64,000 nucleotides of DNA, taken from contig NC_133954.1 of assembly GCF_031877795.1 (NCBI RefSeq), positions 9,577,466 to 9,641,465 of the forward strand, written 5' to 3'. Both the position numbers and the translations under genes were made by a program. The notes beneath the pieces are model-generated. The model searched no databases, had not been told where the DNA came from, and saw only the letters and a program-made list of their open reading frames with translations. This stretch comes from Strix aluco. Taxonomy: Eukaryota > Chordata > Aves > Strigiformes > Strigidae. Below, piece after piece: positions 236 through 55,000 of the stretch (position 1 is the first letter of the stretch; each line of letters begins with the position of its first letter).

Positions 236-4296
<4,061 letters not shown>

Positions 4297-29300: not shown

Positions 29301-30909
29301 TCCAGTGCACCTGAAATTGCACGTTCACTGGAGCAACCCGGAGAGAGCCTGTGCCCGTAATGGCTGTCACAGGGTGAGGATACCTAGAGCAATGCAGAAG
29401 TGTGTTGAGATTAATGGTCCAAAATGTTATGTATTAATGAAACTTAATAGGAATATGTTACTCGGGATACAGAAAGAGTGGATTTTCCTACGAGAATTTT
29501 TGTGCTCTTACTGTTCATTTTTATGATAGGCTGGTAATGTGAGAAATACCACAAAAGTAGCTGCCTTTCGTCTGATTTTTTATCAGAGGCACAGTGAATC
29601 ACTGATTGTCTTTTTTCGTTACTCGAGACAGCGCGGGGCCAAGAGGCTGCCTGGCGTAAGGGCCTGGCGCGGCTGCCGGCTGCCCCGCTGGCACCATCCC
29701 TTGGAGCTGAGGGTGCGAGGGGCTGGACAAAGGCGCCGCGCTCAGAAGCCGGGGCTGCGGTACCTGTCCCCACCCCCAGCTGCCTTTGCAAAGGAAAACA
29801 TTTGCTGTGGGCCAACATCCGCAGCCACGTGCTAGTCCTGAGCCGGCACGAAGCGCCCCAGAGGATCCAGTCCACTAATTTCTGGTTCTTGCTTTGGATT
29901 CTTCTCTGTCCAGCTTTTCCCCCTCTTATCTTCATCTGACCTCCTGAAAATGTTTTATTATGCGGGTGGAGATAATTAATTTCCAGAATTAAAAACTCAA
30001 ACACACCCAAAGATTATAACGCAGGGCACCTTTGGTTGCCTTTGGAAATCGTAACAGTACGAAGTGTCAGCGTCTCCACAGACCCCCCTGCAGGCCTGGT
30101 TTTTAAACACAGCACCTTTTAATTCAACCTCATGCTTAATAAAATTCTTCTCTTCACTTGGTAATACCAGGCTCCCTGTCTGTCTGTGGCAGCCACTGCT
30201 GCTACTAAATGAGTTGAAAACAGACAAAACTTCAACACTAATTAAACGCACACAAGAACAATCCAGGAGGTTTTGACTTAATCTGAATTTGCTGATTTTA
30301 TATGGAATTACTTCAAAAGCTTCAGGCAGAATTACGTGAAACAGATACTTCCTCTGTTTCTCTTCCCTGTCCTTCGTAATTAATTAATTTCTAATCTTTT
30401 TACTGTCTATTAATTTGCTTTATTAACCCCTCTGGTATCACAGTGTTACCCCTGTGAAAAACTTACCAATTTGATTGTTATTTAAGCTGTTCTTTCCTTG
30501 GCCCAACCGTTTCCCAGGTCTGAGGCTTCAATTTAATTTTGAGACTGTATTGAGCAGTTTCTGTCACAAATCCTATTGTATATTTTCGGGATTTGCCACT
30601 AGAGGATGCTGTGCAAACCAACACGCTGTGCGCATTGAGCCCTGCAGTGTCAGCTTCAAACCCCTCTGTCCCTCGTACCAAAGCGTAGGAGATATTTCTG
30701 CTGAGTGGTTCACCAGAGGAACACACCTGTACTGAACCCCGGAAGGGCAGAGTAGGGTATTCCCTTGTATTGACACTGCAAACGTAGACTGATCTCAGCT
30801 CACCCTGTCTTGTTCTGATGGGCTTTGATATTACAATGGGCAGATTATGCTCAAGTTCTGCCTAATAGCTCCATCCAGGGAAGTCAAAGGCAAGCCAGAA
30901 GCGGGTATG
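23333..30909. other. Intergenic, KRT19 upstream region
   Basis: 7.6 kb with no supported gene. It includes a GC- and CpG-richer patch at about 29628-29860 that overlaps a 188-codon minus-strand open frame (29444-30010) with no recognisable domain. I see no keratin remnants, tRNA or named transposon. Confidence 0.55.
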
Positions 30910-31204
30910 CTCGGCTCAGCTCGGCTCAGCTCGGCTTGGCTTGGCTCGGCTCAGCTCGGCTCGGCTCAGCTCAGCTCGGCTCAGCTCGGCTTGGCTTGGC
31001 TCAGCTCAGCTCGGCTTGGCTCAGCTCGGCTTGGCTTGGCTTGGCTCGGCTCGGCTCAGCTCGGCTCGGCTCAGCTCAGCTCAGCTCGGCTTGGCTCAGC
31101 TCGGCTCAGCTCGGCTCGGCTCAGCTCAGCTCAGCTCGGCTTGGCTCAGCTCGGCTCAGCTTGGCTTGGCTCGGCTCGGCTCAGCTCGGCTCGGCTCAGC
31201 TCAG
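30910..31204. repeat. Perfect pentamer array, 59 x CTYRG
   Basis: Fifty-nine 5-bp units in exact register with no insertion or deletion. Only three unit types occur: CTCGG (24), CTCAG (23) and CTTGG (12). On the other strand these are CCGAG, CTGAG and CCAAG. The array is flanked by unique sequence. Open frames that cross it encode Leu/Ser/Ala/Gly/Arg repeats and are artefacts of the repeat. Confidence 0.97.
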
Positions 31205-32786
31205 CTCTGCGGTGGGCACACCCTGAGCTGCGCAGAGACTGGGGGCAGCAGACCCAGCACGGAGGTTTCTCCCCTTTCTCATTTAAGAGAGACAGCAGAA
31301 GGGAAGCAGGAGACTGGGGAATGTTCCTGACAGACAGCCTAGAACACAGCTGGCTCCTTTCTGGGATCAGAAACATTCTTTCTATTTAAACTGTGGTCAC
31401 ATAAGATATTTCATCCCGAAGTCCATTATAGCTGGCTGATGCTGAGCTTTAGACCTTCTTTTCTGAGGTAGCCAGCACTGCCTGGTACGAGAAGTAAAAT
31501 GGGGCATGAGGCAGAACATGAGTCTGTTAGCTTGTACAGGAGCATGAGAGTCCTGTTGTGACTCAAGGGAGAGGTATTTTTGCTTTGACTTTACAAATCT
31601 CCTTTGTTTTCTAGGGAAATAGTTTGTCTGACTCATCTCTCTTTTCTGCTGTGCTGAGAATTTGGCTTTGGATTGTAACATGTAGACAGTTTGATGCCAT
31701 TTTAAATAATACATTGTTATCCAAAAAGATGATATTTTACCTGACCTGAACCTGTTTGCAAACCAAAGTGCAAGTGCAAAGCTATTTGATGGAATAAAAA
31801 CTGTTAGTGATTTATGTGCTGGTCAGAGAACAATGAAGGCTTGGGAGACCCACCCTTGTTTGTTACAGGGTGGCACTTGAGTCACTCACCTGATATGTGG
31901 CAGACCCTGTTCAGCTGCTTTCTCAGTCCACCGCAAACCAAAGACTAAAATACTGATTTGTAAGTTTTAAATGAGTGAAATATTTCACCGATTTTTCTTC
32001 TGCTGTCAAGCCCAAATACTGTGAGTGTGTTACATGAAGTGGAGCCGTTTTAGTAAGAAAGATTGAACCTCGCCGCCACCCTGCCACCCTCCACCCGTCC
32101 ACCCAGAGCTCTGTACAGCCGGGGAGCCAGGAATAGTCTTATGAAATAAGAGAACACACTTCTTGATTTTGAACCATCAGATAAAAGACCTGAGCCCAGA
32201 TCTTCCAACATGTCAGGAGAAATAATCCTAACAATTGAACTTCGTGTTATAAGGAGAACTTCTCTGCATACGCATCACTCGTTTCCTCATCTAATCCTTT
32301 GCTTTTATTGAACAAGATTAGACAGAGCCCTCATCTAAAAGTTGGGAGAGAGCCTGCCTGAATATGATTGATTCTTGTTCATTGACCCAAAGGAGAATGT
32401 TTTTGATTTGACAAAGTTTTCATGAAATTTTGGGGTTAATTAATCCTGATCGTTTTAGTTCAGAGGCTGAACTGTCAAATCAACTACTTGCATATCCCTT
32501 GCAATGTACACTAGGAAAAAGGGTTTTACCCATCCTCTTTTCTACCCTGTAGGTGTCACTCTTGAGTTTAATGTGAATGTATTCGTTCATCTCTGATATT
32601 TTATCCAGACATCATCTGATTAGGTTAGGATACACAATTTTCTTTGGGGCCATATGACATGATACACACAACCTTAATTTCTCTGTGAAGGTATATCTCA
32701 TTTGTTCCACCTAAATGTAAAGACAATATTGCTATACCAAATAGAGTGTTGGACACCAGTTCTCTTTGCATTGCAGAAAAATAAAG
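31205..32786. other. Intergenic between pentamer array and KRT9-like 1
   Basis: 1.6 kb. No gene or repeat recognised. Confidence 0.55.
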
Positions 32787-33073: not shown

Positions 33074-33511
33074 TTAACACACTCTTGACTGCCCTGTGGA
33101 GTGAAAGAAGAAACAAACCATTACTCTGATGGGGAAATCAAGAGTCTCTTGCAGCACTGACACTGCAGATGTACCATTATTTAAACGTCCATCTGTGTTA
33201 GCAAACGTGTGAGAAAGGAGCTCAGGCTGTTTCTGTAACTGAAGCTAAAACACCTTGAAATTAAGAGATTTGATTGTGAATGGTTTAATCCCCGTGGCAA
33301 CTGCAAATGTGGAAGTCACAACACAAGGGATAGTATTAAAGGAAAAGAGATGAAACACAAAATATGAAAGCCATGGGGAATAGGATAAATTAGGATCCTT
33401 TTTGGAAGATGCTTCTTACCTGTCTTGTCGCCAGATTGACCATGAGAGTAGGAAGTAGAAGAATAAGAGTGGGAGGATATTCCCCCTCCTTGGAGAGCTC
33501 CTTGAGACGTT
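33074..33511 (-). CDS. KRT9-like 1 tail exons 7 and 8
   Basis: Exon 7 is 33420-33511 (92 nt; acceptor CTTGCACAG, donor GTAAGA) and encodes [21 protein letters not shown] and GQSGDKT. Exon 8 is 33074-33093 (acceptor CACTCCACAG) and encodes GQSRVC then TAA. The same hexapeptide ends KRT9-like 2, which confirms the small exon. Confidence 0.85.
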
Positions 33512-36500
33512 CTGTGCAAGGAAAGGAATTTTAATGAAGGGAATGATAAATACATTCATAAAGAGACATACTGTGACATAATGTGCAGTGCATGTAACAG
33601 CTCAGCTTTTCCTGGACCTTGCAAACAGTCCTTTATATTTTTTTATTTCATTCTCTTCAGGTATATTTTCCTAGGAGGCTCTAGAAGCAGAAATAACAAA
33701 AGACTGTGGAAGTATAATTCTTCTGCTCTCACAGTCCAGTTGTGCTTGCCAGTCTGCTGTCAGAAGGCAGTACATTACAGTTTGGTTTTGCGTCGTGACT
33801 CCTCTCATGGAACTCACTCTGCACAAACAGGCCAAGAGTTGCTGATTGACTGAACATATGTCAGTAACTATATGCTCGGTGTTTCCCTCTGTGTTTGATG
33901 TGCTTATTAAGTTTATGGTATATACATTTCAATGCAGATGGTGTGAAAAAATCTGGTGTATTTAGATTTCAACTACAGACTGGTAAAACATTCTACTCTG
34001 TCTCCTGTGAGTCTCAAAAGAGAAAAGATTGTGATAGAATTTATGCCCTTATATTTGCAAACAGAATACGTACACAATGTCTTGCTGTCCCTCCTGCAGC
34101 AGTGCCCGGTACTGCGCAATCTCCTGCTCCAGGCGGGTCTTGATGCCCAGGAGCATCTTGTACTCCTGGTTCTGACTCTCCATCTCACAGCGGATGCTGG
34201 CCAGCTCCTCCTCTACCGAGTTAATCTGCCCTTGGATTTGTTGCAGCAGGCAGCCATAGCGAGATTCGGTTTCTGCCAGGGAGTTTTCCAGAGAGTTTTT
34301 CTGGAGGCGGAAATGCAGGTGTTTAGCAGCAGAGCTCTACCCTCCCTGCCCGTTCCGAGGAGGGCAGGGCCCAGCGATCCTGCCCCACGTACCGTGCTGA
34401 GCTGCGCCTGCAGTTCGATCTCCAGGTTCTGCATCTCGCGTCTCAGCTCGGTGAGCTGGTGGCTGCTCGTCTGGATGTCCTGGCTGCTAGAAGTGACCTG
34501 CTGGTTGACCTCTTCAATCTGCAGGAGTCGAACCCCAAACACACTTTGTGAGTGAGAAAATCCCCTCAGGGAGCAGCTTTGCTGCCTGGGAACTCAGACA
34601 GCCAGGGAGCCTCTCCCTTCCATCTCGTCCTCATCGAGGACAGCCCAGTCATTGCTCTGTGGATCCTGACGTTCCACCCAGCTTGGCCCATCAGACCTGG
34701 CCTGCTCCCCCTCTGCCACTGCAGCCTTTCCGCGGTGGCTTTTTCCTTCCCGTTCCCCAGGCGTGCAAGTGAGGTGCAGGTGAGCAGCCTCCTCCTTTTA
34801 GCCAAAGGCATTGCATGCCCCGTACTACCGGGGCGTCCGGGTTTTCCCACCCAAGGAGACGCCACGTTGTGTGTTGCTACGTACCTTGACTTCATACCAC
34901 TGCTCAACCTCTCTGCGGTTCTTCTCGATGAGCTGCTCGTATTCGTTTCTCAGGTCGTTCAGTATCTTTGTCAAGTCTTCGCCAGGGGCAGCATTGACCT
35001 CCACGCTCACGTCGCCACCAGTTTGGGACTGGAGCTGTCTCATTTCCTGCAGAGCCCGAAGAGAGACACAAAGAGCACAGGTCATTTCTTGTGCTGGGGC
35101 CAGTGGGCAAAGCAGTATCAAGGTCCCAAGGAACGACAATCACACGACGTAAGGCTGAATTGACTTGACACGTAACTTTGGGAACCCCGAAGAATCAAAG
35201 GACTATGTCTTGGGCACGCTCTTTATCATTGGGTCGTACCTCCTCATGGTTTCTCTTCAGAGCAATCAGTTCGTCCTTCAGGGACTCCAGCTCGGACTCC
35301 AGTGAAGATCGAGTGCGAGTGAGATCATCCAGGAGATTTCTCAAGCCATTAATATCAGCCTCCACAGTCTGGCGGATGACCAGCTCGTTCTCATACCTGT
35401 ACCAAAGGAAAAAGAAGAGTTACACATTCATTTCATTACAATGCGTAGGCTTGGTCATACCACCTGGGACAGGGTATCATCACCTGCATTCATGAATCTC
35501 GTAAAATTCATGAGATGAAACGTGTGAGTTCACAGAGAGGTACTCACTTCATTCGGAAGTCGTCAGCAGTCATCTTGCTGTTATCGATGTCGAGCATCAG
35601 CTTGTTATTGTCCACAGTGGCAGAAATGATCTGCAAAAGGGGAAATTGGAGAGGAGTCTTCCTGTGCTCAAGACATCCAGGACAAGAAGCAAGAAGACCC
35701 CAAGCTTTGGTAGCGCTTTGTTGCGGGTCTTGGAATTGTTTCCTGCAGTAATGCAGGAAAGTTGTTACAGTGCCATGCCACAGGAACTGCTGTGTGCAAG
35801 ATTTTGGCTTCCCCAAACATTCTGATGAATGAATATATTGATGGGGGGACAAACAGAAGAACATTGATGCTGGCAGATCACCGACACCTTTGGCTTTCTG
35901 CACCCTGGGTGTCTAAGGAAGTGCAGTCTTTGTCCCTGATGCTCTAATTTGTCTCATTATCAAAAAAACTGCCTGTGGGGGAAGGCCTTGGTCCTTCCAT
36001 CTGCTCTGTGTAGGAGTGTGCAGGACAAAGGGAGTTCAGGTCTTGCCGTGCAGGTGCTTTGGCTTTGCACCCCGTCCAGCTGAACTGGGTGGGACTGGGA
36101 GGACTGGAAACCACATGTGCCTGGTTTGGAGCCGCCTGTGCGAGGTGGGATTTCAGTGAGGTGCGCCAGCGTGTTTGGGCGTGGCGGAGCCCTCCTCGAT
36201 GCCTCAGGCCGTGCCCACAGGGCACATCCCTTTTGCTTGTGGGGTGGTGTGGGGGTCTGTTCACCCCAGAGAAGGGAGGCGCAGCTCAGCAGGTTTCTGC
36301 CCGCGGTAGCACCAGCAAGGCCGCCCAGGAGGTCCCTCCCACCCCTCTAGAGCCAGTGCCAGGGGGAAGGAGGACGTCCTTGTGCAGGGGAGCGGCGTGC
36401 GGGAGATGGAGGCACCGTTAGCCAGGGCTGTCCTACCTGATTCTGGAGTTGTTCGATGGTCTGGTAGTAGGAGCTGTAGTCCTTTGAGACAGTGGGAGCT

Positions 36501-36931
36501 TGTTTCCTGTACCACTCCCGGATGTGGTGCTCGAGCTGAGCATTTTCCTCCTCCAGCCTTCGCACTTTGTCCAGGTACGCAGCCAGGCGGTCGTTGAGGT
36601 TCTGCATGGTGACCTTCTCATTGCCGCTCAGAAGGATGTCCCCCCCCGCCCCAAAGCCACCGCCAAAGCCACCGCCAAAGCCTCCTGCCAGGCCGCCACC
36701 AAAGCCTCCTGCCAAGCCCCCGCCAAAGCCCCCAGCGAGGCTGCCAGCGCTCATGCCCCCTCCGTAGCCAGCGCTGCACGCTCCCCCGCCGTAGCTTCCC
36801 CCGCCGATCACAGAGGAGGCGTATCGCCTGCAGGAGACGGAGGAACTCCGGCCTCCGCCGCCACCGCCGGCGCCTCCAGCTCCACCGCTCCTGTAAGAGG
36901 TGCTCGATGTTCTCTTGATGCTGCAGCTCAT
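33074..36931 (-). CDS. Keratin 9-like 1, type I epidermal keratin
   Basis: Exons: 36437-36931, 35548-35630, 35240-35396, 34885-35046, 34393-34518, 34074-34300, 33420-33511 and 33074-33093, giving 453 codons. Head: about 104 residues, [10 protein letters not shown] followed by [10 protein letters not shown] loops. Rod: from [20 protein letters not shown] to [12 protein letters not shown], about 105-415. Tail: about 37 Ser/Tyr/Gly residues. K9 kinship is seen in [20 protein letters not shown], in [20 protein letters not shown] and [11 protein letters not shown], and in SSSQDIQTS, all close to human K9 and unlike K10, K14 or K15. By position (next to KRT19) it also fits KRT9. Exon 6 is 6 nt longer than in K15 and K19. 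The ATG at 36931 has a good CCACCATGA context; an in-frame ATG at 37075 lies upstream of the TATA box and is not used. Exons 1-6 are almost identical to the next gene. A KRT14- or KRT42-type database label is possible. Confidence 0.88.
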
Positions 36932-37121
36932 GGTGGAAGCGATCAGCTGTCTGGCCCAAGTGCAAAGCCCTGCACAACTTGAGGGAGAAGATGAGGCTGC
37001 AGCCTCCTGTCCCCGCTGATGGCTACTTATACCTTGCCGGGTGGGTGGCTCCCGCCAGGCAGTCCAGCTTCCCATGGCGTTTGCCAGCCTGAGTGCTCAC
37101 GCCAAAAGTGATGTGCTAAGG
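34064..37121 (-). repeat. Duplicated/converted tract, copy 1
   Basis: Matches 42987-45830. 34064-35310 aligns at a constant offset of 8923 with a single mismatch that I can find (34734 against 43657). 35528-37121 aligns with few mismatches, apart from about 250 extra bp in intron 1. Between these lies diverged intron 2. Outside the tract only older, weaker similarity remains (for example 37170-37240 against 45875-45945, and exon 7). Confidence 0.92.
37025..37031 (-). promoter_or_regulatory. TATA box of KRT9-like 1
   Basis: TATAAGT on the minus strand, about 95 nt upstream of the ATG. The promoter sequence up to 37121 is shared with KRT9-like 2. Confidence 0.75.
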
Positions 37122-40100
37122 GGAATTTCTTTCGGGGCTTGGGACAGCCCTCCCCACAGGTATTGTGTCTGCATGCTGATTCACACGAAGCATGCACTGT
37201 AATTTCAGGTGGGTGGCTGTGTGTTAGATTTTGTTTCAGATAGCATGTTGCTGGCTACTTAGTGAGTGAGACTCATTTTAATAGTTCTTCTTTGTTCTTT
37301 GTAATCATTTTTTCTACTGAAAACAGGTGGTGAAAGCACCACCTAGTTACCATGTTTTAATTTCAGAGTTGGAGAAATATGAACTCAGGCACCTTCTGTG
37401 TGAGTCTGGTTTCATTTTACCTGCAGAACTGCCAGTAACTGACATTTTTGGAAATAAAATCTCTGAGAATTTAGGTTCTTCCCTACAAAGAAAGCTCATT
37501 GTGGGTACTGTTTTTCAGAATGTTTAGTGGTAAATCTCAATAGAATAACCTTTGGAGAAGCAGTGATATTTGTGAGTTTTCATGGAAATCTGGTAGTATC
37601 ACTTCCAGGAAGTAATCCTGTGTGTTGCACAGAACGATGGATGTGCAATAATGTAATTTAAAATCTGTGATTTTTTAAAATGTTGTGCAAATTTCTAGTC
37701 ACTCAAAGATTACTTCGAACTGAAATAGATGTGTAGAATCTCTAAGGCGTCACTGACTGTCTTGGGAGAGGAGAGCAGAAGGATTCAGCGTTTTGACTTA
37801 GCAAAATGGAAGCTAAGATGGTTAGCAGCTGGCTCTCAAGGAAGGAGATACCAGGGCTGTTTAAAATAAAGGACAACCCTGTTGTCCACACAGGAAAGGG
37901 CATCATCTGCTTGAGTGTGTTTGGGCTGGAAACTAAGGGGGAGCTTTTTATCTATGGGAGACAAAAGGATCTGGAAGGTGCTTCCATTGTGGGAGGTTTG
38001 GATGGAAAAGAGAAACGGTTTTGAGATTGACCTTGATCAGCTGGTGGTAGGGATTTTATCCTCGTGTCGTAGAGACAGCTGTGGTGACCCTTTAGATCCC
38101 CCTTGCCTTCTGTCTTTCGTCTCTAATACTGCAGAGGTCTCCAACGCTACTGCACAATTGCAGCGTTTCTGTCAGAAAACAGGATGTGATGAACCCTTCT
38201 TTGGAAATGAAAGTTTGACTTTAAATAACTTTCGCAAAACATAAATTTTAAGCCTGAAAGACAGGGGGCCTCTTTACATGAGAGTTAGACTCTGATGGAA
38301 ATTAATCTCTATTTGGAAGTTGAAAACTACTAGTTCATTTTGTGGTGGTTTCTTCTTTTTCAATCTTACTTATACGCAGCTTGTGGTTGTGGCTGGAGCA
38401 ACATTTTCTCTCTTAGCTGCAATAATTATGAGACCCATAAAAGTTATAAATGCGTGTTACAGCTGACAGGTATCATGGAAAGCCATTTACCTTCTTTCTT
38501 GATACCCCTACACACATTTTCATAGATATGCTGAAGATAATGTAATACTTTGATCTTCCTAGTTATGATTGTTCTTTTATTGGTAGCTCTCTAATTATCT
38601 GCACGTCAGAACCAGTTGCTTTGCATATGTTATTGAGACTGAGTCATCATTATTAAAAAATAAAAATTATTTTCTCACAGGGTGTGATTCCTTAGTCATA
38701 TTTTCCTCATTAGATTGTTGAAATGCACCTTTATTCTTCCCTATGAGAGGTTTATTGCTGATTGGCATTAACGCCAGAGGTGTTGATTTTATATCTCCTT
38801 CTCAGCATTGTTGCATCATAACATCTGACCAACAATTTCAAACATTTCCCAATGCTGTAATTTCATACCATCAACAGATGTCTTTTCTCTGTCTCTTTTT
38901 TGAACAGCTGATCTAACTTTGCTTACTGCTGTAACTGTATTACAAATACTTAAACTTTGGACTTTCTATTCTGTAACTCGTGGGTATTTCCGTGTCTCCC
39001 ATACATTTTTGGTCCACCATCCTCTGGACGCAGCTCTCTGCCCTGAGGTGGCTGTTGTGAGGCAATCTGGACATACTGATCTACATCACAAGCCAACAGA
39101 GCCAGGTCTCTTAAGGTGCCATTAACAGTCATAATCCTTGTGATGGCAGAACGGGGTCAGACATTTTCTGTTGTAGAGGGTATAGAGGCTCCTCAGCCCT
39201 ATGAAGAGACTGTTAGAGCTTTGAAATCCTATCTTCCCTCGAAGGCTTTTTGCTTATAATGCACCTTATGAACCTCTCTAAATCAGAAACGTTTGTTTGA
39301 AGTAACAGTGCTGCGAAGCCTTTCCAAATGCTGTTTACTCACCGGTGAAATTGGTCGCAGAGGCACAAACAGATACTCCAAAGTGGCAAAAGAACCAGAA
39401 GTAGTCAGTGGTTTTCACCGAAGCTGTGACGCCATTACTGGATGAATGTTTAGTCACACAAGAGGGAGAGGACAACCTCAGAAACAATTACTGGTAATTA
39501 ATTGTTTTACAGAAAATGAGTCAACTGTGGTCTTGGTAAGAAGAGTGCTGCTCCCATGAGTTTCATCAGGAGCTCCATCTGTGCATTCCTCACCCGCCAC
39601 CCATGGCCTTTCAGCATCCCTCCCCTGTGCGTTTCGTCAGCGTGTTCAGAGGAACGTTTCCATTGCCCCAGATTCTGGTCTTATTTTTCTCTTAAGTGAC
39701 TCCCTGGGATGGACCCCTATACCCTGCATGTGTGTAGACCTACAGAAAATCCTATTAAATGTGAGCTATTTTCATTCTACAGTCTGTCTAAATTGTTATT
39801 CAGTAGTCCTTCCTACCACTGAAAAAGGAAAAGTTTAAAAGTAATTCCCAAGAGAAATTAAGCTCTTCCAGTATAGCAATCCTTTCCTGTTCTCTCTCTC
39901 TACCTGCCACAACATGCTGTTATTATCAATGATGTTAACTAATGAATTCTAAATTCCTCCCTGCCAAAGCCCATTTTTCCCCTTCCCTGTAGATCTTTTC
40001 AGAACCATAAGCAACTGTATTGCTTTTTCTAAGAACCATGGATGAGGAGAAGTGAGTGCCAGGAGCAGACAGTGATACCAGGATACCTGATCAAACATGT

Positions 40101-42116
40101 GTTGGGGTTTCTGGAGCATCTGCTGGCCCTGGAGGGGGTGAGGCACGCTGTGCTTTTGGCGTGCCTGTGCCATGACCCGTGCGTTTCCCCCAGGACAGCC
40201 CTTGCCCCACACGTCGGTGGAGGTCAGCACCTCACCCACCAGCCGGGGGTGATGTGCGAAAGGCGCTGCCCCTCCACCAGCAATCCAGTCCTGCCGCCGT
40301 CACCGTCCCCGGCAGCTTTGCAGTGCGCCCGCTCCTTCCAGTCGGCAGATTGCCCAGCTTTGGTCTGGCAGGTTTAACTTCAGACTCTCCATAGCGCTGC
40401 CTATTTCACAGAGACCTCGCACTCTTACAAAGGAGTTCAGCAATGGGGAGAGACCTACTGCAGCTCTGGTGTTCCCTCGAGTTCGCTGGGTGTGGAAGAC
40501 TATTTCTGATCATTCTAATACTTCTCTGTGCTTCTGGAAGATTAGAAGGAAGCAGAACAACCGTTCAATGCTGATTTATATACACTAACTGTAGTTCAAG
40601 TTTCCATAATCCTGTCTCAGAAAAGATGTCTTCTTAAGCTGTTCTGGCTGTGTTAAGTACATCTGCGATGTGAATGAATTCTGGCAGCCTTTGGAGATGA
40701 AACTGGTAAAACCTGAAATGAGCCTTTTTTTCTTCAGAGGAGGGCTTTTGTTCATACAAATTCCTGATGCTGGACTGAAAAAGTCAGTCTGGAAACCCAG
40801 TTTTTCACCATGACTAGAAAGTATCTCTGTGGATACTTACTGCAAACTGCAATTATAATATTGTGAAGGCAGAGCCAAGCCACATGATTACTGAAAGAAG
40901 ACCTAACCTAAATAATACTCTTGTAAGTTGTTTAGGATGAAAAAACCTTTCTTTTCATTACCCTAACTGCATACCCTCCGTCAGCAAATAGAGACCAGAT
41001 TTGGTAGGTGGGGAAGGGAACAACAGGCACGTAGAACTGGATGAAACCTGGCCAATTTTGTGCATCTGATGCACACAGTTATAGATTGAAAAGGGGTTTC
41101 ACTTCATCTTTGGAAAGACAAATATATATAAAATAGCTGTTCTAATTTAGTATTGCCCTCTCATCTCCAATTTTATTACATATTTTATTTTCTTAAGCAG
41201 AAAAAGAAAGTATAGAAAATCATTTCAGTGGATGAAATGTGTCGCTCATTCCTCTTCAGGCATAGTGTCAGCCAGTTGAATGTACTGACAAAAAGTGGGT
41301 TCTTGGTATTATATTGGTATTTAAGTTGAAATTTCTATCATAAAACGTAGGAATGTTTTGGTGCATGACACTGAAGGAAACAGGCCCATTGCCTTGCTGG
41401 CTGTATTTCCTGGCAGAAGTTAGCAATACGTAATTCTCTGCATAGTCAAAGGTGTAGAAATCCTTGATGTCAGGGAGCCCAAACGTACTGGAACAACCTC
41501 TCCCGAGTCACGCCTTCCCACAGGAACTCTAGCTATGGTGAGCTGAGTAAAGCCAAAGATAATGGACTCAGATGAGTCACAGTAGTGACACTGAACAGTT
41601 TAGTACATTAGCGGTTAATCCAATATTCTTCAGAGAGTTACCCATCATTGGTATTTTCTTTCTGCTTTCACTCACATCACTCAGAGTGTCCTCAGTAAAA
41701 AGCAGCAAGGCAGGGGGACAGAAAGCAATCCTTCAGTGGCCATTAGAAAACAAAACCATCAGTTGTTTGTAATTTGACAGGAAGGAGAAAAATTGTGTCA
41801 AGAATGGATTTCTGTTTTCAACCTTATATCTCTTGCTTTTGAGCAGGGAGTTCTGACAGTCTCACCTGACTGACAGTTCCCGCAGGCAGAGCTCGGAGGA
41901 TGGCACGCTTCCTGCAGCCGTGCTCAGAATTAGCGACATTTCCTTTTACTCAGTGTGTCCATTTTCTCAGTGCTAAATAGATTGTCCCAAGACTGTGGTA
42001 CAGAGGATGATAGGACAGCCTGTGTTTGACTGCTTAGCTTGATAAATACCTGTTCAAAGTTTTTAAAATTAAATTTCTCAGACACACTGCTTTGATTTGC
42101 ATTGCAGAAGTAAAGT
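37122..42116. other. Intergenic, KRT9-like 1 to KRT9-like 2
   Basis: 5 kb. The first 150 bases keep weak similarity to the KRT9-like 2 upstream region. A minus-strand open stretch at about 38950-39150 looks coding-like but has no identified family. No other gene or repeat recognised. Confidence 0.55.
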
Positions 42117-42122
42117 TTTATT
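42117..42122 (-). terminator. Poly(A) signal of KRT9-like 2
   Basis: AATAAA on the minus strand (CTCTAATAAAACTT), about 215 nt after the stop, in a context shared with KRT9-like 1. Confidence 0.8.
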
Positions 42123-42334
42123 AGAGGCAGAGTTATCAGCAGAATTTAACCCTTAAACAAAGAACCAGTTGAGTAAGAGGAGCATTGCAGAATGGAGGAA
42201 GGGTGATGAGGCCGGTGCCCAGGCACTGCTTCCAAACTGTTCCAGATGCGTCGGCTGCGCTGCAGAAGTGCGGGGTTCAGTCTCTGTCCATGTTCAGCGC
42301 CGTTTAGCGGGGCTGCCAGTGTCCCTGCCGGGGC

Positions 42335-42838
42335 TTAGCAGACTCTTGACTGCCCTGGGTAAAGACAGAGCAAATCATTGCCTTGAGGGGAAATCGGATC
42401 TTCCCTCTGAACTGAATTCTTTCACCTAACATGCTGGGTTAGCAAGAGAAGCTCAGAGATCCCAAGGCCAACAATACCCTAGGCACTTTCTCAGAACTGT
42501 ATTTTAAAAAGCATATCCCATCCTGTAAAGTTTATAATCTCTATTTATATTTAGGTAGAGGGAGGGGCAAGACTCACTGGATTTTAACCCCCAATTCCTC
42601 CGTGACAGAGTCAAAGAGGTTCTCTCACTCCTGGACCTGGGAATCTTGACCAGCCCAAAATACAAAACTTTTTTCTGACAAAATATATTGTAGTCAATGC
42701 GGTGGGTGTAACCCACTAATAAACATTTCCTTACAAAGTGTTGTCTTACCTGTCACATCACCAGACTGGGAATGAGAGTAGGAAGTAGAATATGAATGGG
42801 AGGATTTTCCACCTCCTTGGAAAGCTCCTTGGGAGGCA
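42335..42838 (-). CDS. KRT9-like 2 tail exons 7 and 8
   Basis: Exon 7 is 42750-42838 (89 nt, three fewer than copy 1; acceptor CTTTTTACAG, donor GTAAGA) and encodes [20 protein letters not shown] then SHSQSGDVT. Exon 8 is 42335-42354 (acceptor CTTTACCCAG) and encodes GQSRVC then TAA. Confidence 0.85.
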
Positions 42839-45640
42839 CTGTAAAAAGAGAGTAATTAATTCACAAAAAAATCCCTGACTGCTGGATATTCAGTCAAAAA
42901 AGATGTTAATGTAGCTCCACGGACAAAATGTGTCTATTAGCAATTAAGTACATAAGGATTTCTATTTATTCCCTTGCTATACTATGGAATACGTACACAA
43001 TGTCTTGCTGTCCCTCCTGCAGCAGTGCCCGGTACTGCGCAATCTCCTGCTCCAGGCGGGTCTTGATGCCCAGGAGCATCTTGTACTCCTGGTTCTGACT
43101 CTCCATCTCACAGCGGATGCTGGCCAGCTCCTCCTCTACCGAGTTAATCTGCCCTTGGATTTGTTGCAGCAGGCAGCCATAGCGAGATTCGGTTTCTGCC
43201 AGGGAGTTTTCCAGAGAGTTTTTCTGGAGGCGGAAATGCAGGTGTTTAGCAGCAGAGCTCTACCCTCCCTGCCCGTTCCGAGGAGGGCAGGGCCCAGCGA
43301 TCCTGCCCCACGTACCGTGCTGAGCTGCGCCTGCAGTTCGATCTCCAGGTTCTGCATCTCGCGTCTCAGCTCGGTGAGCTGGTGGCTGCTCGTCTGGATG
43401 TCCTGGCTGCTAGAAGTGACCTGCTGGTTGACCTCTTCAATCTGCAGGAGTCGAACCCCAAACACACTTTGTGAGTGAGAAAATCCCCTCAGGGAGCAGC
43501 TTTGCTGCCTGGGAACTCAGACAGCCAGGGAGCCTCTCCCTTCCATCTCGTCCTCATCGAGGACAGCCCAGTCATTGCTCTGTGGATCCTGACGTTCCAC
43601 CCAGCTTGGCCCATCAGACCTGGCCTGCTCCCCCTCTGCCACTGCAGCCTTTCCGCAGTGGCTTTTTCCTTCCCGTTCCCCAGGCGTGCAAGTGAGGTGC
43701 AGGTGAGCAGCCTCCTCCTTTTAGCCAAAGGCATTGCATGCCCCGTACTACCGGGGCGTCCGGGTTTTCCCACCCAAGGAGACGCCACGTTGTGTGTTGC
43801 TACGTACCTTGACTTCATACCACTGCTCAACCTCTCTGCGGTTCTTCTCGATGAGCTGCTCGTATTCGTTTCTCAGGTCGTTCAGTATCTTTGTCAAGTC
43901 TTCGCCAGGGGCAGCATTGACCTCCACGCTCACGTCGCCACCAGTTTGGGACTGGAGCTGTCTCATTTCCTGCAGAGCCCGAAGAGAGACACAAAGAGCA
44001 CAGGTCATTTCTTGTGCTGGGGCCAGTGGGCAAAGCAGTATCAAGGTCCCAAGGAACGACAATCACACGACGTAAGGCTGAATTGACTTGACACGTAACT
44101 TTGGGAACCCCGAAGAATCAAAGGACTATGTCTTGGGCACGCTCTTTATCATTGGGTCGTACCTCCTCATGGTTTCTCTTCAGAGCAATCAGTTCGTCCT
44201 TCAGGGACTCCAGCTCGGACTCCAGTGAAGATCTAACCAGAGTCAGGTCATCCAGGAGATTTCTCAAGCCATTAATATCAGCCTCCACAGTCTGGCGGAT
44301 GACCAGCTCATTCTCATACCTGTACCACAGACAAGAGAGACAGAGAAGTGGGGAAAGGAGATGATGACAGTCAGTAGCACCCATCTTTCCAAGTCAGTAT
44401 CCCAGTAAAACATGAAGACTCGGTAACACCACTCGGGGCAGTGCTGCCTTGTCTCCTGAGATTATGAGCAGGATTTGAAAGACAAGTAATGTTCACAGAG
44501 AGGTACTCACTTCATTCGGAAGTCGTCAGCAGTCATCTTGCTGTTATCGATGTCCAGAAGCAGCTTGTTATTGTCCACAGTGGCAGAAATGATCTGCAAG
44601 AGGGGAAGTTGGAGAGGAGTCTTCCTGTGCTCAAGACATCCAGGACAAGAAGCAAGGAGACCCCAAGCTTTTTTGTAGGGATTGTAAGGAAAGGCCTTGG
44701 TCCTTCCATCTGCTCTGTGTAGGAGTGTGCAGGACAAAGGGAGTTCAGGTCTTGCCGTGCAGGTGCTTTGGCTTTGCACCCCGTCCAGCTGAACTGGGTG
44801 GGACTGGGAGGACTGGAAACCACATGTGCCTGGTTTGGAGCCGCCTGTGCGAGGTGGGATTTCAGTGAGGTGCGCCAGCGTGTTTGGGCGTGGCGGAGCC
44901 CTCCTCGATGCCTCAGGCCGTGCCCACAGGGCACATCCCTTTTGCTTGTGGGGTGGTGTGGGGGTCTGTTCACCCCAGAGAAGGGAGGCGCAGCTCAGCA
45001 GGTTTCTGCCCGCAGTAGCACCAGCAAGGCCGCCCAGGAGGTCCCTCCCACCCCTCTAGAGCCAGTGCCAGGGGGAAGGAGGACGTCCTTGTGCAGGGGA
45101 GCGGCGTGCGGGAGATGGAGGCACCGTTAGCCAGGGCTGTCCTACCTGATTCTGGAGTTGTTCGATGGTCTGGTAGTAGGAGCTGTAGTCCTTTGAGACA
45201 GTGGGAGCTTGTTTCCTGTACCACTCCCGGATGTGGTGCTCGAGCTGAGCATTTTCCTCCTCCAGCCTTCGCACTTTGTCCAGGTATGCAGCCAGGCGGT
45301 CGTTGAGGTTCTGCATGGTGACCTTCTCATTGCCGCTCAGAAGGATGTCCCCCCCCGCCCCAAAGCCACCGCCAAAGCCACCGCCAAAGCCTCCTGCCAG
45401 GCCGCCACCAAAGCCTCCTGCCAAGCCCCCGCCAAAGCCCCCAGCGAGGCTGCCAGCGCTCATGCCCCCTCCGTAGCCAGCGCTGCACGCTCCCCCGCCG
45501 TAGCTTCCCCCGCCGATCACAGAGGAGGCGTATCGCCTGCAGGAGACGGAGGAACTCCGGCCTCCGCCGCCACCGCCGGCGCCTCCAGCTCCACCGCTCC
45601 TGTAAGAGGTGCTCGATGTTCTCTTGATGCTGCAGCTCAT
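42335..45640 (-). CDS. Keratin 9-like 2, type I epidermal keratin
   Basis: Exons: 45146-45640, 44511-44593, 44163-44319, 43808-43969, 43316-43441, 42997-43223, 42750-42838 and 42335-42354, giving 452 codons. Exons 1, 4, 5 and 6 encode the same protein sequence as KRT9-like 1; exon 1 shows one silent difference (a TAC/TAT change and its neighbours aside, none seen). Exon 2 differs by one residue (LLLDIDNS for LMLDIDNS). Exon 3 differs at a short patch (LTLVRSS for LTRTRSS). Exon 7 is clearly diverged. Domains are as in KRT9-like 1: glycine-loop head about 104 residues, coiled-coil rod, short Ser/Tyr tail. The ATG at 45640 follows a TATA box by about 95 nt. The two genes probably make near-interchangeable acidic keratins that differ mainly in the tail. 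A KRT14- or KRT42-type database label is possible. Confidence 0.88.
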
Positions 45641-45830
45641 GGTGGAAGCGATCAGCTGTCTGGCCCAAGTGCAAAGCCCTGCACAGCTCGAGGGAGAGGA
45701 TGAGGCTGCAGCCTCCTGTCCCCGCTGATGGCTACTTATACCTTGCCGGGTGGGTGGCACCTGCCAGGCAGTCCAGCTTCCCATGGCGTTTGCCAGCCTG
45801 AGTGCTCACGCCAAAAGTGATGTGCTAAGG
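42987..45830 (-). repeat. Duplicated/converted tract, copy 2
   Basis: Partner of 34064-37121. Covers exons 1-6, most introns and the proximal promoter of KRT9-like 2. Flanking exon 7, exon 8, 3' UTR and far-upstream sequences are homologous to copy 1 but much more diverged. Confidence 0.92.
45734..45740 (-). promoter_or_regulatory. TATA box of KRT9-like 2
   Basis: TATAAGT on the minus strand, identical in sequence and position to the KRT9-like 1 box. Confidence 0.75.
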
Positions 45831-52085: not shown

Positions 52086-55000
52086 CTGTAAAGAGAAAGA
52101 AAGGAGAAAAAAAAGTTAATCAAATGCATTTTTGACGTCAGAAGGAAATCTATCTACAGATACTGCACGGAAGCTTGCACTCCTCGTGTCTGTCCTTCTC
52201 CTTTTAGAACCTAGCACAGATCAGCAAGACCACTGATGTGTGCCAAAAATCAACCTCTCTCAATTTCAGCTTGAATGCAAGAGATTTTGCTTTACCCACA
52301 TTCTGCTCAGATATTTCTTGCAAGCTTTAGCATTGCTGCTTTATCGGTGTGTGCCGTCACTGCGCTCCAAATTGGAAAGGCAAAAAACGAAGCTTTAGCT
52401 CTTCTTTCCGGCGCCACTTACAAGCAGAAGCAGGCTCACTGCATAACAGAAACCCAAATAGCTTGAACTGTCAGAGAACTGCACACTGAGACTTTTACGA
52501 AGGTTTGGAAAAACTATGGTCATTTTTCTGCTTGCAGTCTTTTCCAAGGTGACCTCTGTCTGTTCAGCTCCTGACCTTTTCTGGAGCCAGGGCAAAGGTA
52601 AGGCTCTGTACGGGGGTTTCCCTGTCCAGCCCCAAATCGGTAGCTCAGAATTTCTGCATTAATTTTTGTTCACATGATTTGTATTCTGAACAGGTTTGCC
52701 AAGAAATGTATAGTGCCTCAAACCGAGGAGGCGACTGGTCAAGAGAGCCGAATTAGCCTCATTTCAGTACAAAATCTATTTTGCAAATCTAGACTGTTGA
52801 TTTCCTGTCTTTGTGACTAAGCTGGCAAGCCTGGCTTTACACGGTGCTGTGTTCCTTTGTCAGGTTACATACACAAGGTCTTGCTGCCCTTCCTCAAGCA
52901 GTGCCCGGTACTGCGCAATCTCCTGCTCCAGGCGGGTCTTGATGCCCAGGAGCATCTTGTACTCTTCGTTCTGACTCTCCATCTCACAGCGGATGCTGGC
53001 CAGCTCCTCCTCCAAGGGGCCGATCATACCCTGGATCTGCTGCAGCTGCATGTTATAGCGACGTTCCGTGTCTTCCAAGTTGGATTGCAAAGAGTCTACC
53101 TGCAAATGGAAAACAAAAAATACTGTTTATGGGAATGTGGCAAGTTTAACTCATTTTTTGTGGAAAAAAATGAGATCTTCACAAGCCAGAAAAAAGTGTA
53201 TCTTTGAAGATAAGTAATCCAGTATCCCATTCTCTACAGATGGAGCACTTTCTAGGTAGAACCATGCTTTCATTCCCGTGACACATACAGCCTGTCCCAG
53301 GTGAAGCAGGAGCAGATGCCTTTACCTACCATGCTGATTTGCGACTGCAGCTCGATTTCCAGGCTTTGATATTCACGTCTCAGCTCAGAGATCTGTTGGT
53401 TGCTTGATTGTATCTCCTGGCCACTTGAGTGGACTTGTTGATTAACTTCTTCCATCTAAAAAATTTACATACAAAATTGAGGCATTTTTGATAATAAGAA
53501 AACATTGTGGGGTTATCATGAAAGCAATTAATAAGAATGAAGAAAGATGTAATGCAGACTGACTGTGTAGATCTCCCACATGCCACTGCTAACTCACTCT
53601 GTGTAACCCACCTTGCTACAGGACCACAGAGATTCTATGTGCTTCACCACGTAACCTTAATACTCCAGCACTGACCTGTTAGAGTAAACTGCTTAAAGTC
53701 CTTTAAAGTGAATGTCCCTTAAATAATACATGGTAAATTGCCTTTCCTCTGCTGGATGTAAAGAGGTCCAGTTGTTTGTGAAAGATTTAGTAACTGAAAC
53801 CCCCCTGTGCTTTACCTTGGTTTCATACCAGCTTTCCACCTCTCTCCGGTTGTTCTCAATAAGCCGTTCATATTCACAACGCATCTCATTTAATTTTTCC
53901 ATCAAATTAATGCCAGGAGTAGCATTGACCTCCACATTGACATCACCACCAGATTGTGTTTGCAGTCCTTTCATTTCCTGGAAAAAAACCCAACAAACCC
54001 CACCAGGTTCTCAAAGGCTGAAAGTAAGGAGAAATGTCATAGTTTCAAATAAAGGAAAAGAAAGGGACACAAATCCTCAGACAGCCGTATCGCTCCTGCA
54101 AAGGGAACCTCATCTGCCCTTGTCATCGAAGGGAACAATTCTGCCAGTCTCCAGGCAGACTTTACAGAGAACAGCAGCAGCACATACACCTTGACCCTGG
54201 CATTTTCTCCTCAGGGTCATATGGAATTCTATGCAGGGTGCTCTTTGTGAAAATCCTTTTATGTATTTTTGTTCTCAGTGGGAAATATCATTGCAGATAG
54301 TATAAATATTTTCTTTTGACTCCTCCATACATTCTATCCAATTTTCTTTCCATGACTTCAGCAACAAAATTGTACTTTGTACTGAAAGCCATTCATCTCC
54401 CTGGTCTCATTTTGCCACATGTTGACCTGGGTGTCTTATTACATCGGTTGTGGGCAGCTATGGATGCTGCATACTCCTGAAAATCAAAGCCAGATCATGT
54501 CAAGTTGGATGATCAAAGCCAGTGGCCCAAAGCTGGTTACTGCTAGTGGAAGAAATCCACAGGAAATTCTCTGAGCGTTGAGCTTTCGTTAGTTATTATT
54601 TTAAAGTGTGGAGAAACTTACCTCTTCGTGGTTCTTCCTGAGATAGATCAGTTCCTCTTTTAGGGATTCAAACTGTGTCTCCAAGTCAGATCTGGCCAGA
54701 GTCAGCTGATCCAAAAGTGGACGTAATCCATTAATATCACTTGCCACGCTCTGGTGCAGAGTGTATTCAGTTTCATACCTAAACAACAGACAAGAAAAAT
54801 GGTAACAGTGCTGCCAGACCTCTTTGTTATCTTGATTATCAACAGTTCCCATCAGTACGTCTTTCAACTTTAATCCCATTGCTCAGTTCTTAAAAGAAGG
54901 GACCTAATTTAATTCTCTTTCCATCTCCAGTAGGTTTGTTTGATTTCAGTACAATTTCCCTCTCTGAGATTTATATGACGAGGGTTATGCTTATAAATCT

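Follow-up and report, generated by a model that had tools for sequence, protein, structure and literature searches.

Near-identical tracts in two neighbouring KRT9-like keratin genes of Strix aluco are best explained by gene conversion between old tandem copies

Mosaic gene conversion with raised GC and the concerted evolution of mammalian keratins are known phenomena. The mammalian pairs BMP8A/B, DDX19A/B and TUBG1/2, as described in PMC2720389, are nearby genes in which, like at the locus reported here, some exons and introns are homogenised while others diverge, and in which GC3 and intron GC are raised in the homogenised parts. The evidence for those pairs spans species and a process lasting more than 100 million years, whereas ours comes from one genome; in turn, the present case concerns a structural gene cluster, with four adjacent pairs involved and tracts that are sometimes limited to a single exon. 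Closer by family are the mammalian keratins K31/K33/K34, K6A-C and K81/K83/K86, members of the same superfamily and clusters, whose paralogues are reported to group within species (PMC4195889, PMC5540548). Concerted evolution was inferred there from trees, while tract anatomy is a feature of the present case, and significant conversion or recombination was reported in only 3 of the 19 groups tested (PMC5540548). The bird beta-keratin genes also form a skin-appendage family for which gene conversion is mentioned (11 occurrences in PMC2894828), but they encode an unrelated protein family. The avian alpha-keratin surveys PMC4264316, PMC7086170 and PMC8742010 treat the same family and, judging by layout, the same type I cluster; the phrase "gene conversion" has no occurrence in any of the three. 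In the open literature, searched by title and start of abstract and with most subscription journals outside its scope, we found no paper on conversion between bird alpha-keratin genes, and the instance reported here was not found described.

We analysed a window of 64,000 nucleotides (NC_133954.1, hereafter C24, positions 9577466-9641465), examined 164 kb of sequence around it, and searched the whole assembly (1.41 Gb, 202 contigs). Judged from gene content, the surroundings look like a bird type I keratin cluster. Two adjacent genes of the window, L1 and L2, share their orientation and are separated by 8.7 kb (Table 1). A count by eye gives 3 differing residues between their predicted proteins in exons 1-6; the tail adds 5 more, plus a gap of one residue. 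The Filament domain (PF00038) spans residues 104-413 of L1 (E 3e-102), and the type I keratins 14 and 10 are among its best PDB matches by sequence, where they rank above the type II keratins 5 and 1. Exons 2-5 measure 83, 157, 162 and 126 bases, and splice sites fit these lengths, which the search imposed, in all 11 modelled genes. Both the intermediate-filament rod and the shared gene structure thus place L1 among predicted type I keratins. KRT9L3, KRT9L4 and KRT9LC1-3 serve as names of chicken genes in PMC8742010 and PMC12821399. Between two keratin genes of the window sits an array of the 5-base unit GCTCG (30909-31207; ~60 copies, 84% matches), which can alternatively be read with a 25-base unit.

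Table 1. Features of the KRT9-like genes L1 and L2 and of a block in a further gene (window coordinates)
Feature	Position	Strand	Description
Copy 1 (L1)	33074..36931	(-)	type I keratin, KRT9-like (predicted); 8 exons, 453 aa, intact; splice sites at all junctions
Copy 2 (L2)	42335..45640	(-)	type I keratin, KRT9-like (predicted); 8 exons, 452 aa, intact; gene model
Tract T1, copy 1	34064..35310	(-)	one end 10 bases into intron 6, the other inside exon 3; alignment and exon models
Tract T1, copy 2	42987..44233	(-)	partner of 34064-35310; alignment
Older diverged island, copy 1	35311..35978	(-)	remainder of exon 3, intron 2, exon 2, part of intron 1; alignment
Older diverged island, copy 2	44234..44687	(-)	partner of 35311-35978; alignment
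Tract T2, copy 1	35979..37121	(-)	exon 1, the 5' portion of intron 1 and the 190 bases preceding the start codon; alignment
Tract T2, copy 2	44688..45830	(-)	partner of 35979-37121; alignment
Exon 7, copy 1	33420..33511	(-)	outside the tracts; partner 42750-42838; 80.9% identical
C56 exon 6 block	52885..53146	(-)	93.9% identical to 68103-68364 of the neighbour D71, just past the window

Base-by-base alignment of L1 and L2 delimited two near-identical tracts. T1, in which the initial annotation had found a single difference, indeed contains exactly one in 1247 sites, introns 3-5 included: a G/A difference in intron 4 (34734/43657). T2 contains 8 differences in 1143 sites; of these, 5 lie upstream of the start codon (36977-37053). 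Self-BLAST recovered both, at 99.3% identity for 34064-35404/42987-44327 and 99.1% for 35979-37128/44688-45836. Introns 3, 4 and 5 are 100, 99.7 and 100% identical, with 1 difference in 651 sites altogether, and dS is 0 in exons 4-6. In the entire assembly, two sequences match the initial 337 bases of T1 at 100%, followed by matches at 83-86%; for the stretch of exon 1 and promoter, two match at 99-100% and the next at 80%. The 2898 BLAST-alignable sites of the two genes carry 77 differences, and the longest identical runs measure 684, 576 and 398. A run of at least 684 arose in 0 of 20000 permutations (largest permuted run, 438), a conservative test because the unalignable parts were left out. 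The divergence of T1 and T2 differs with a Fisher p of 0.017, for boundaries picked after the data had been seen, and the two tracts probably differ in age.

Between T1 and T2 lies a diverged island, which went unreported in the initial annotation. Its description of near-identical exons 1-6 holds for the two tracts, but not for exon 2 (96.4% identity), exon 3 (94.9%), the diverged intron 2 and 270 bp found in copy 1 only. Within the island, the exon 3 part has 8 differences, of which 7 fall within 14 bases (35311-35324). There, copy 1 reads TRTR, while copy 2 (TLVR) and 8 of the 9 other genes read TLxR; a patch from one of these nine genes was rejected as the source of the differences, TRTR matching 0 of 9 and copy 2 keeping TLxR. 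Intron 2, of 151 versus 191 bases, aligns over 142 bases with 65.5% identity and 58 gap columns; its middle scores 81 against 28±17 for shuffles. Each intron 2 has a single assembly match, itself, and a donor role of some third gene was therefore rejected for both. Exon 2 has three differences and the adjoining intron another three, giving 6 in 181 for 35528-35708 (exon 2 and flanks), which is perhaps an older conversion tract. The next 270 bp (35709-35978, intron 1) are replaced by 16 bp in copy 2. A transposon origin of this stretch was rejected, its one assembly match, in a search that skips very common words, being itself.

On the outer sides of the tracts, the two genes remain recognisably related. 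Alignment scores exceed those of shuffled controls for exon 7 (278 versus 5±17), intron 7 (259 versus 108±27), exon 8 with the 3' UTR (330 versus 48±26) and ~130 bases upstream (37129-37260; 186 versus 24±16), bearing out the initial annotation that exon 7, exon 8, the 3' UTR and the sequence above 37121/45830 are homologous and far more diverged. Intron 6 is not alignable (-151 versus -172±15), and homology is not clear at 37261-37660 (195 versus 152±28).

Exons 1-6 were modelled for 11 genes of the cluster, named by position: A13, B23, L1, L2, C56, D71, E85, F95, G106, H116 and I126. The models of 9 of the 11 were automatic, with exon 2-5 lengths fixed beforehand, and the set leaves out a gene near window 4 kb and filament-gene matches at C24:9541873-9573394. 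The proportion of synonymous sites differing (pS) was computed per exon for the 55 pairs, that is, in 330 cells, exon 1 being represented by its last 198 bases only. It is at most 0.132 in 14 of the 330 cells, the next value being 0.303. All 14 fall in four of the 10 adjacent pairs, and none in the other pairs of the 55: L1/L2 (exons 1-6), H116/I126 (exons 1, 3, 4, 5 and 6), E85/F95 (exons 3 and 5) and C56/D71 (exon 6). Such cells are absent from the adjacent pairs A13/B23, B23/L1, L2/C56, D71/E85, F95/G106 and G106/H116. In C56/D71, pS is 0.09 for exon 6 and 0.41-0.85 for the other exons. In E85/F95, the 157 bases of exon 3 are identical, dS is 0.63 and 0.74 for exons 2 and 4, and the five introns are 46-55% identical (MAFFT, no shuffled control). 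In H116/I126, dS reaches 1.95 in exon 2 (75.9% identity) and is 0-0.07 in exons 1 and 3-6; introns 4 and 5 are 100 and 98.4% identical, and introns 1-3 are 42-54% identical (MAFFT, no shuffled control). The exon 1 model of H116 starts at an upstream ATG, and its length of 672 is not the true exon length. The edges of several blocks lie 4-52 bases outside an exon, and no BLAST match of at least 100 bases is listed for the middles of the diverged introns in the pairs besides L1/L2.

In exon trees that are short and have many weakly supported forks, L1 and L2 are mutually nearest in all six exons, whereas exon 2 of H116 is nearer B23 (0.169) than I126 and its other exons are nearest I126; the exon 6 values of D71 and C56, being out of register, were excluded from this comparison. 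The heterogeneity of pS among exons is strong in H116/I126 (p 5.7e-22), E85/F95 (p 1.9e-11) and C56/D71 (p 8.0e-9), and modest in L1/L2 (p 0.0099), in which low values extend to almost every exon. Many pairs that have no low cell also reach nominal significance (L1/C56, for example, with p 3.8e-5), so that either exon rates vary for additional reasons or older conversions are still visible. Exon 6 of L1 and L2 (34074-34300 and 42997-43223; 52873-53099 in C56) has a pS of 0.30-0.31 to C56 and D71, against 0.46-0.79 for the other exons, and for exon 3, A13 and B23 have a pS of 0.31-0.34 to H116 and I126. Both sets of lowish values are perhaps traces of older conversions. Judged from sequence, conversion appears to recur in three adjacent pairs besides L1/L2, with some blocks confined to one exon. 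The suggestion of the initial annotation that head, rod and promoter stay alike while tails drift therefore applies to L1/L2 only, since in the other pairs other exons are converted. Three neighbours in this region, E85, F95 and G106 (window coordinates ~81400-106300, beyond the window), have cysteine-rich rods, and recall the three chicken genes KRT9LC1-3 named in PMC8742010 and PMC12821399.

A rise in GC is a common but not obligatory mark of conversion, and is present here on average. Converted introns have a GC of 0.60 in L1/L2, against 0.45-0.48 for the other introns, and of 0.80 in H116/I126, against 0.50-0.53. Across the eight genes of the four pairs, with exons 2 and 3 of L1/L2 classed as unconverted, converted exons show a mean within-gene GC3 excess of 0.168, which was reached in 29 of 20000 label shuffles within pairs. 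GC3 is also negatively correlated with the smallest pS (Spearman -0.64 over 66 gene-exon cells, which are non-independent). An exception is the exon 5 block of E85, with a GC of 0.508 versus 0.525 beside it; similarly, the GC3 of exon 5 in E85 and F95 (0.69 and 0.67) is not above that of all their other exons. The observed/expected CpG ratio is 0.49-0.78 in most blocks (0.39 in exon 3 of H116) and 0.24-0.37 beside most of them; it is 0.52 between the E85 blocks and 0.46 over the whole 164 kb. The GC and CpG excess could be a cause or a result of conversion.

A pair of neighbouring type II keratin genes on another contig, L030 (C27:2064501-2071500) and L031 (C27:2074001-2081000), was chosen for equal match scores in both genes and serves as one example, not as a rate. 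The two are 99.1% identical over 1.8 kb, introns included, in a stretch starting ~100 bases ahead of exon 2 and finishing near the end of the final rod exon; 15 of the 17 differing columns lie at or after position 3883. Outside this tract, identity is 75.6% in exon 1 and ~78% in the tail, and intron 1 aligns no better than shuffles (271 versus 236±36). The GC of the tract is 0.55 versus 0.36-0.41 beside it, the tract having exons and the flanks none. By sequence, this pair looks like a counterpart of the L1/L2 pattern.

Both ends of T1 and of T2 fall inside the duplicated unit, beside diverged homologous or unalignable sequence, and introns and synonymous sites are homogenised within the tracts and diverged just outside, as expected of conversion. 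L1 and L2 are very probably old tandem duplicates, parts of which were later copied by non-reciprocal interlocus gene conversion, and conversion in at least two tracts explains the data best. This supports the reading of the initial annotation, a recent conversion between old tandem copies. A single recent tandem duplication with uneven later divergence would fit the proximity and shared orientation of the two genes as well as a near identity that totals more than 2 kb. However, neutral divergence within the gene spans 0.08% (T1) to about one third (intron 2), an abrupt change that a single duplication does not account for, and exon 7, the UTR and the upstream sequence are diverged. The uniform divergence along the duplicate that the initial annotation had named as contrary evidence is not seen, as the permutation test indicates. 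We accordingly give this scenario next to no probability, and as the sole explanation it is refuted. The same holds for purifying selection keeping the rod and head of old copies alike without copying, which is favoured by the fact that keratins are conserved in the rod and by how few residues differ across exons 1-6. Synonymous sites and introns 3-5 are nevertheless as identical as coding sites, and the L1/L2 exons have a pS of at least 0.30 to those of the 9 other genes. Selection on its own is thus scarcely credible and refuted as the sole explanation, although constraint may help to retain what conversion makes.

Unequal crossing-over between diverged copies, which would yield hybrid genes whose identity stems from duplication instead of copying, is favoured by the tandem same-strand arrangement and has been named alongside conversion for mammalian keratins (PMC4195889). 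After a single exchange, however, identity should reach one end of the duplicated unit; here it stops on either side, at 34064 and at 37121, and is interrupted by a diverged island, so that one crossover does not account for the pattern and several exchanges would be needed, making this origin highly unlikely. We hold a chimeric join, or the correction of one copy with reads of the other, to be just as improbable. Near-identical kilobase repeats are a typical site of such errors, and polishing could explain part of the 1-versus-8 contrast between T1 and T2, but the 164 kb examined contain no N, the contig measures 10.6 Mb, and patches with differing edges occur in four pairs here and in a further pair on a different contig. 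Moreover, polishing is not expected to make one exon identical between diverged introns, and the GC shift in the tracts is a historical mark. Lastly, conversion templated by a spliced transcript (cDNA) would produce exon-limited tracts such as the single-exon blocks of E85/F95 (exons 3 and 5) and C56/D71 (exon 6). It was rejected, and we regard it as extremely improbable, because the tracts of L1/L2 and H116/I126 contain whole introns, and the BLAST edges of the single-exon blocks extend a few to 47 bases into introns.

Under conversion between the genomic copies, an old tandem duplication would have produced the two KRT9-like type I keratin genes, after which a break in one copy would be repaired from the neighbouring copy. 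Copying would stop where introns are too diverged to pair, trapping the tracts on exons and the nearest intron and promoter bases, while heteroduplex repair favouring G and C would raise GC within them. In this way, the head, rod and proximal promoter of L1/L2 would stay alike, and the tails and distal flanks would drift. Ectopic copying, intron heterology and GC-biased repair would together explain the exon-near edges, the inclusion of neutral sites and the composition. At an avian rate of 1.9e-9 per site per year, T1 would be ~0.2 (0.01-1.2) million years old, a figure that assembly polishing could bias downward. T2 would date to ~1.8 (0.8-3.6) and the patch at exon 2 to ~8.7 (3.2-19) million years. 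The zebra finch germline rate is reported as 5.0e-9 per generation of ~2-3 years (PMC12047795). The two rates are of the same order. The mean allelic non-crossover tract of the zebra finch is given as ~32 bp (PMC12047795), far shorter than the 1.1-1.2 kb seen here. This poses a difficulty for the conversion reading, which would require either infrequent long conversions or a large number of short ones.

A broader reading, which we put forward tentatively and consider doubtful, is that standing conversion splits keratin genes into two kinds of modules. GC- and CpG-rich rod exons, in some pairs with the proximal promoter and exon 1, would be swapped between neighbours in both clusters, since in a lineage lacking PRDM9 breaks would occur in the CpG-rich parts of genes, whereas tails, some single exons and most introns would diverge; rods would thereby stay interchangeable while end domains specialise. 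L1/L2 represents a known kind of gene evolution in an unusually clear form. Within a single gene, the exon-scale tracts allow converted exons to be set directly against unconverted ones, a natural experiment on the homology needs of ectopic conversion and on GC-biased repair. Bird keratins have been named and related by rod-domain trees (PMC4264316), and rod-only trees of that type would be affected: should conversion act on the rods of neighbouring genes, these trees would make tandem pairs appear too young and would blur orthology.
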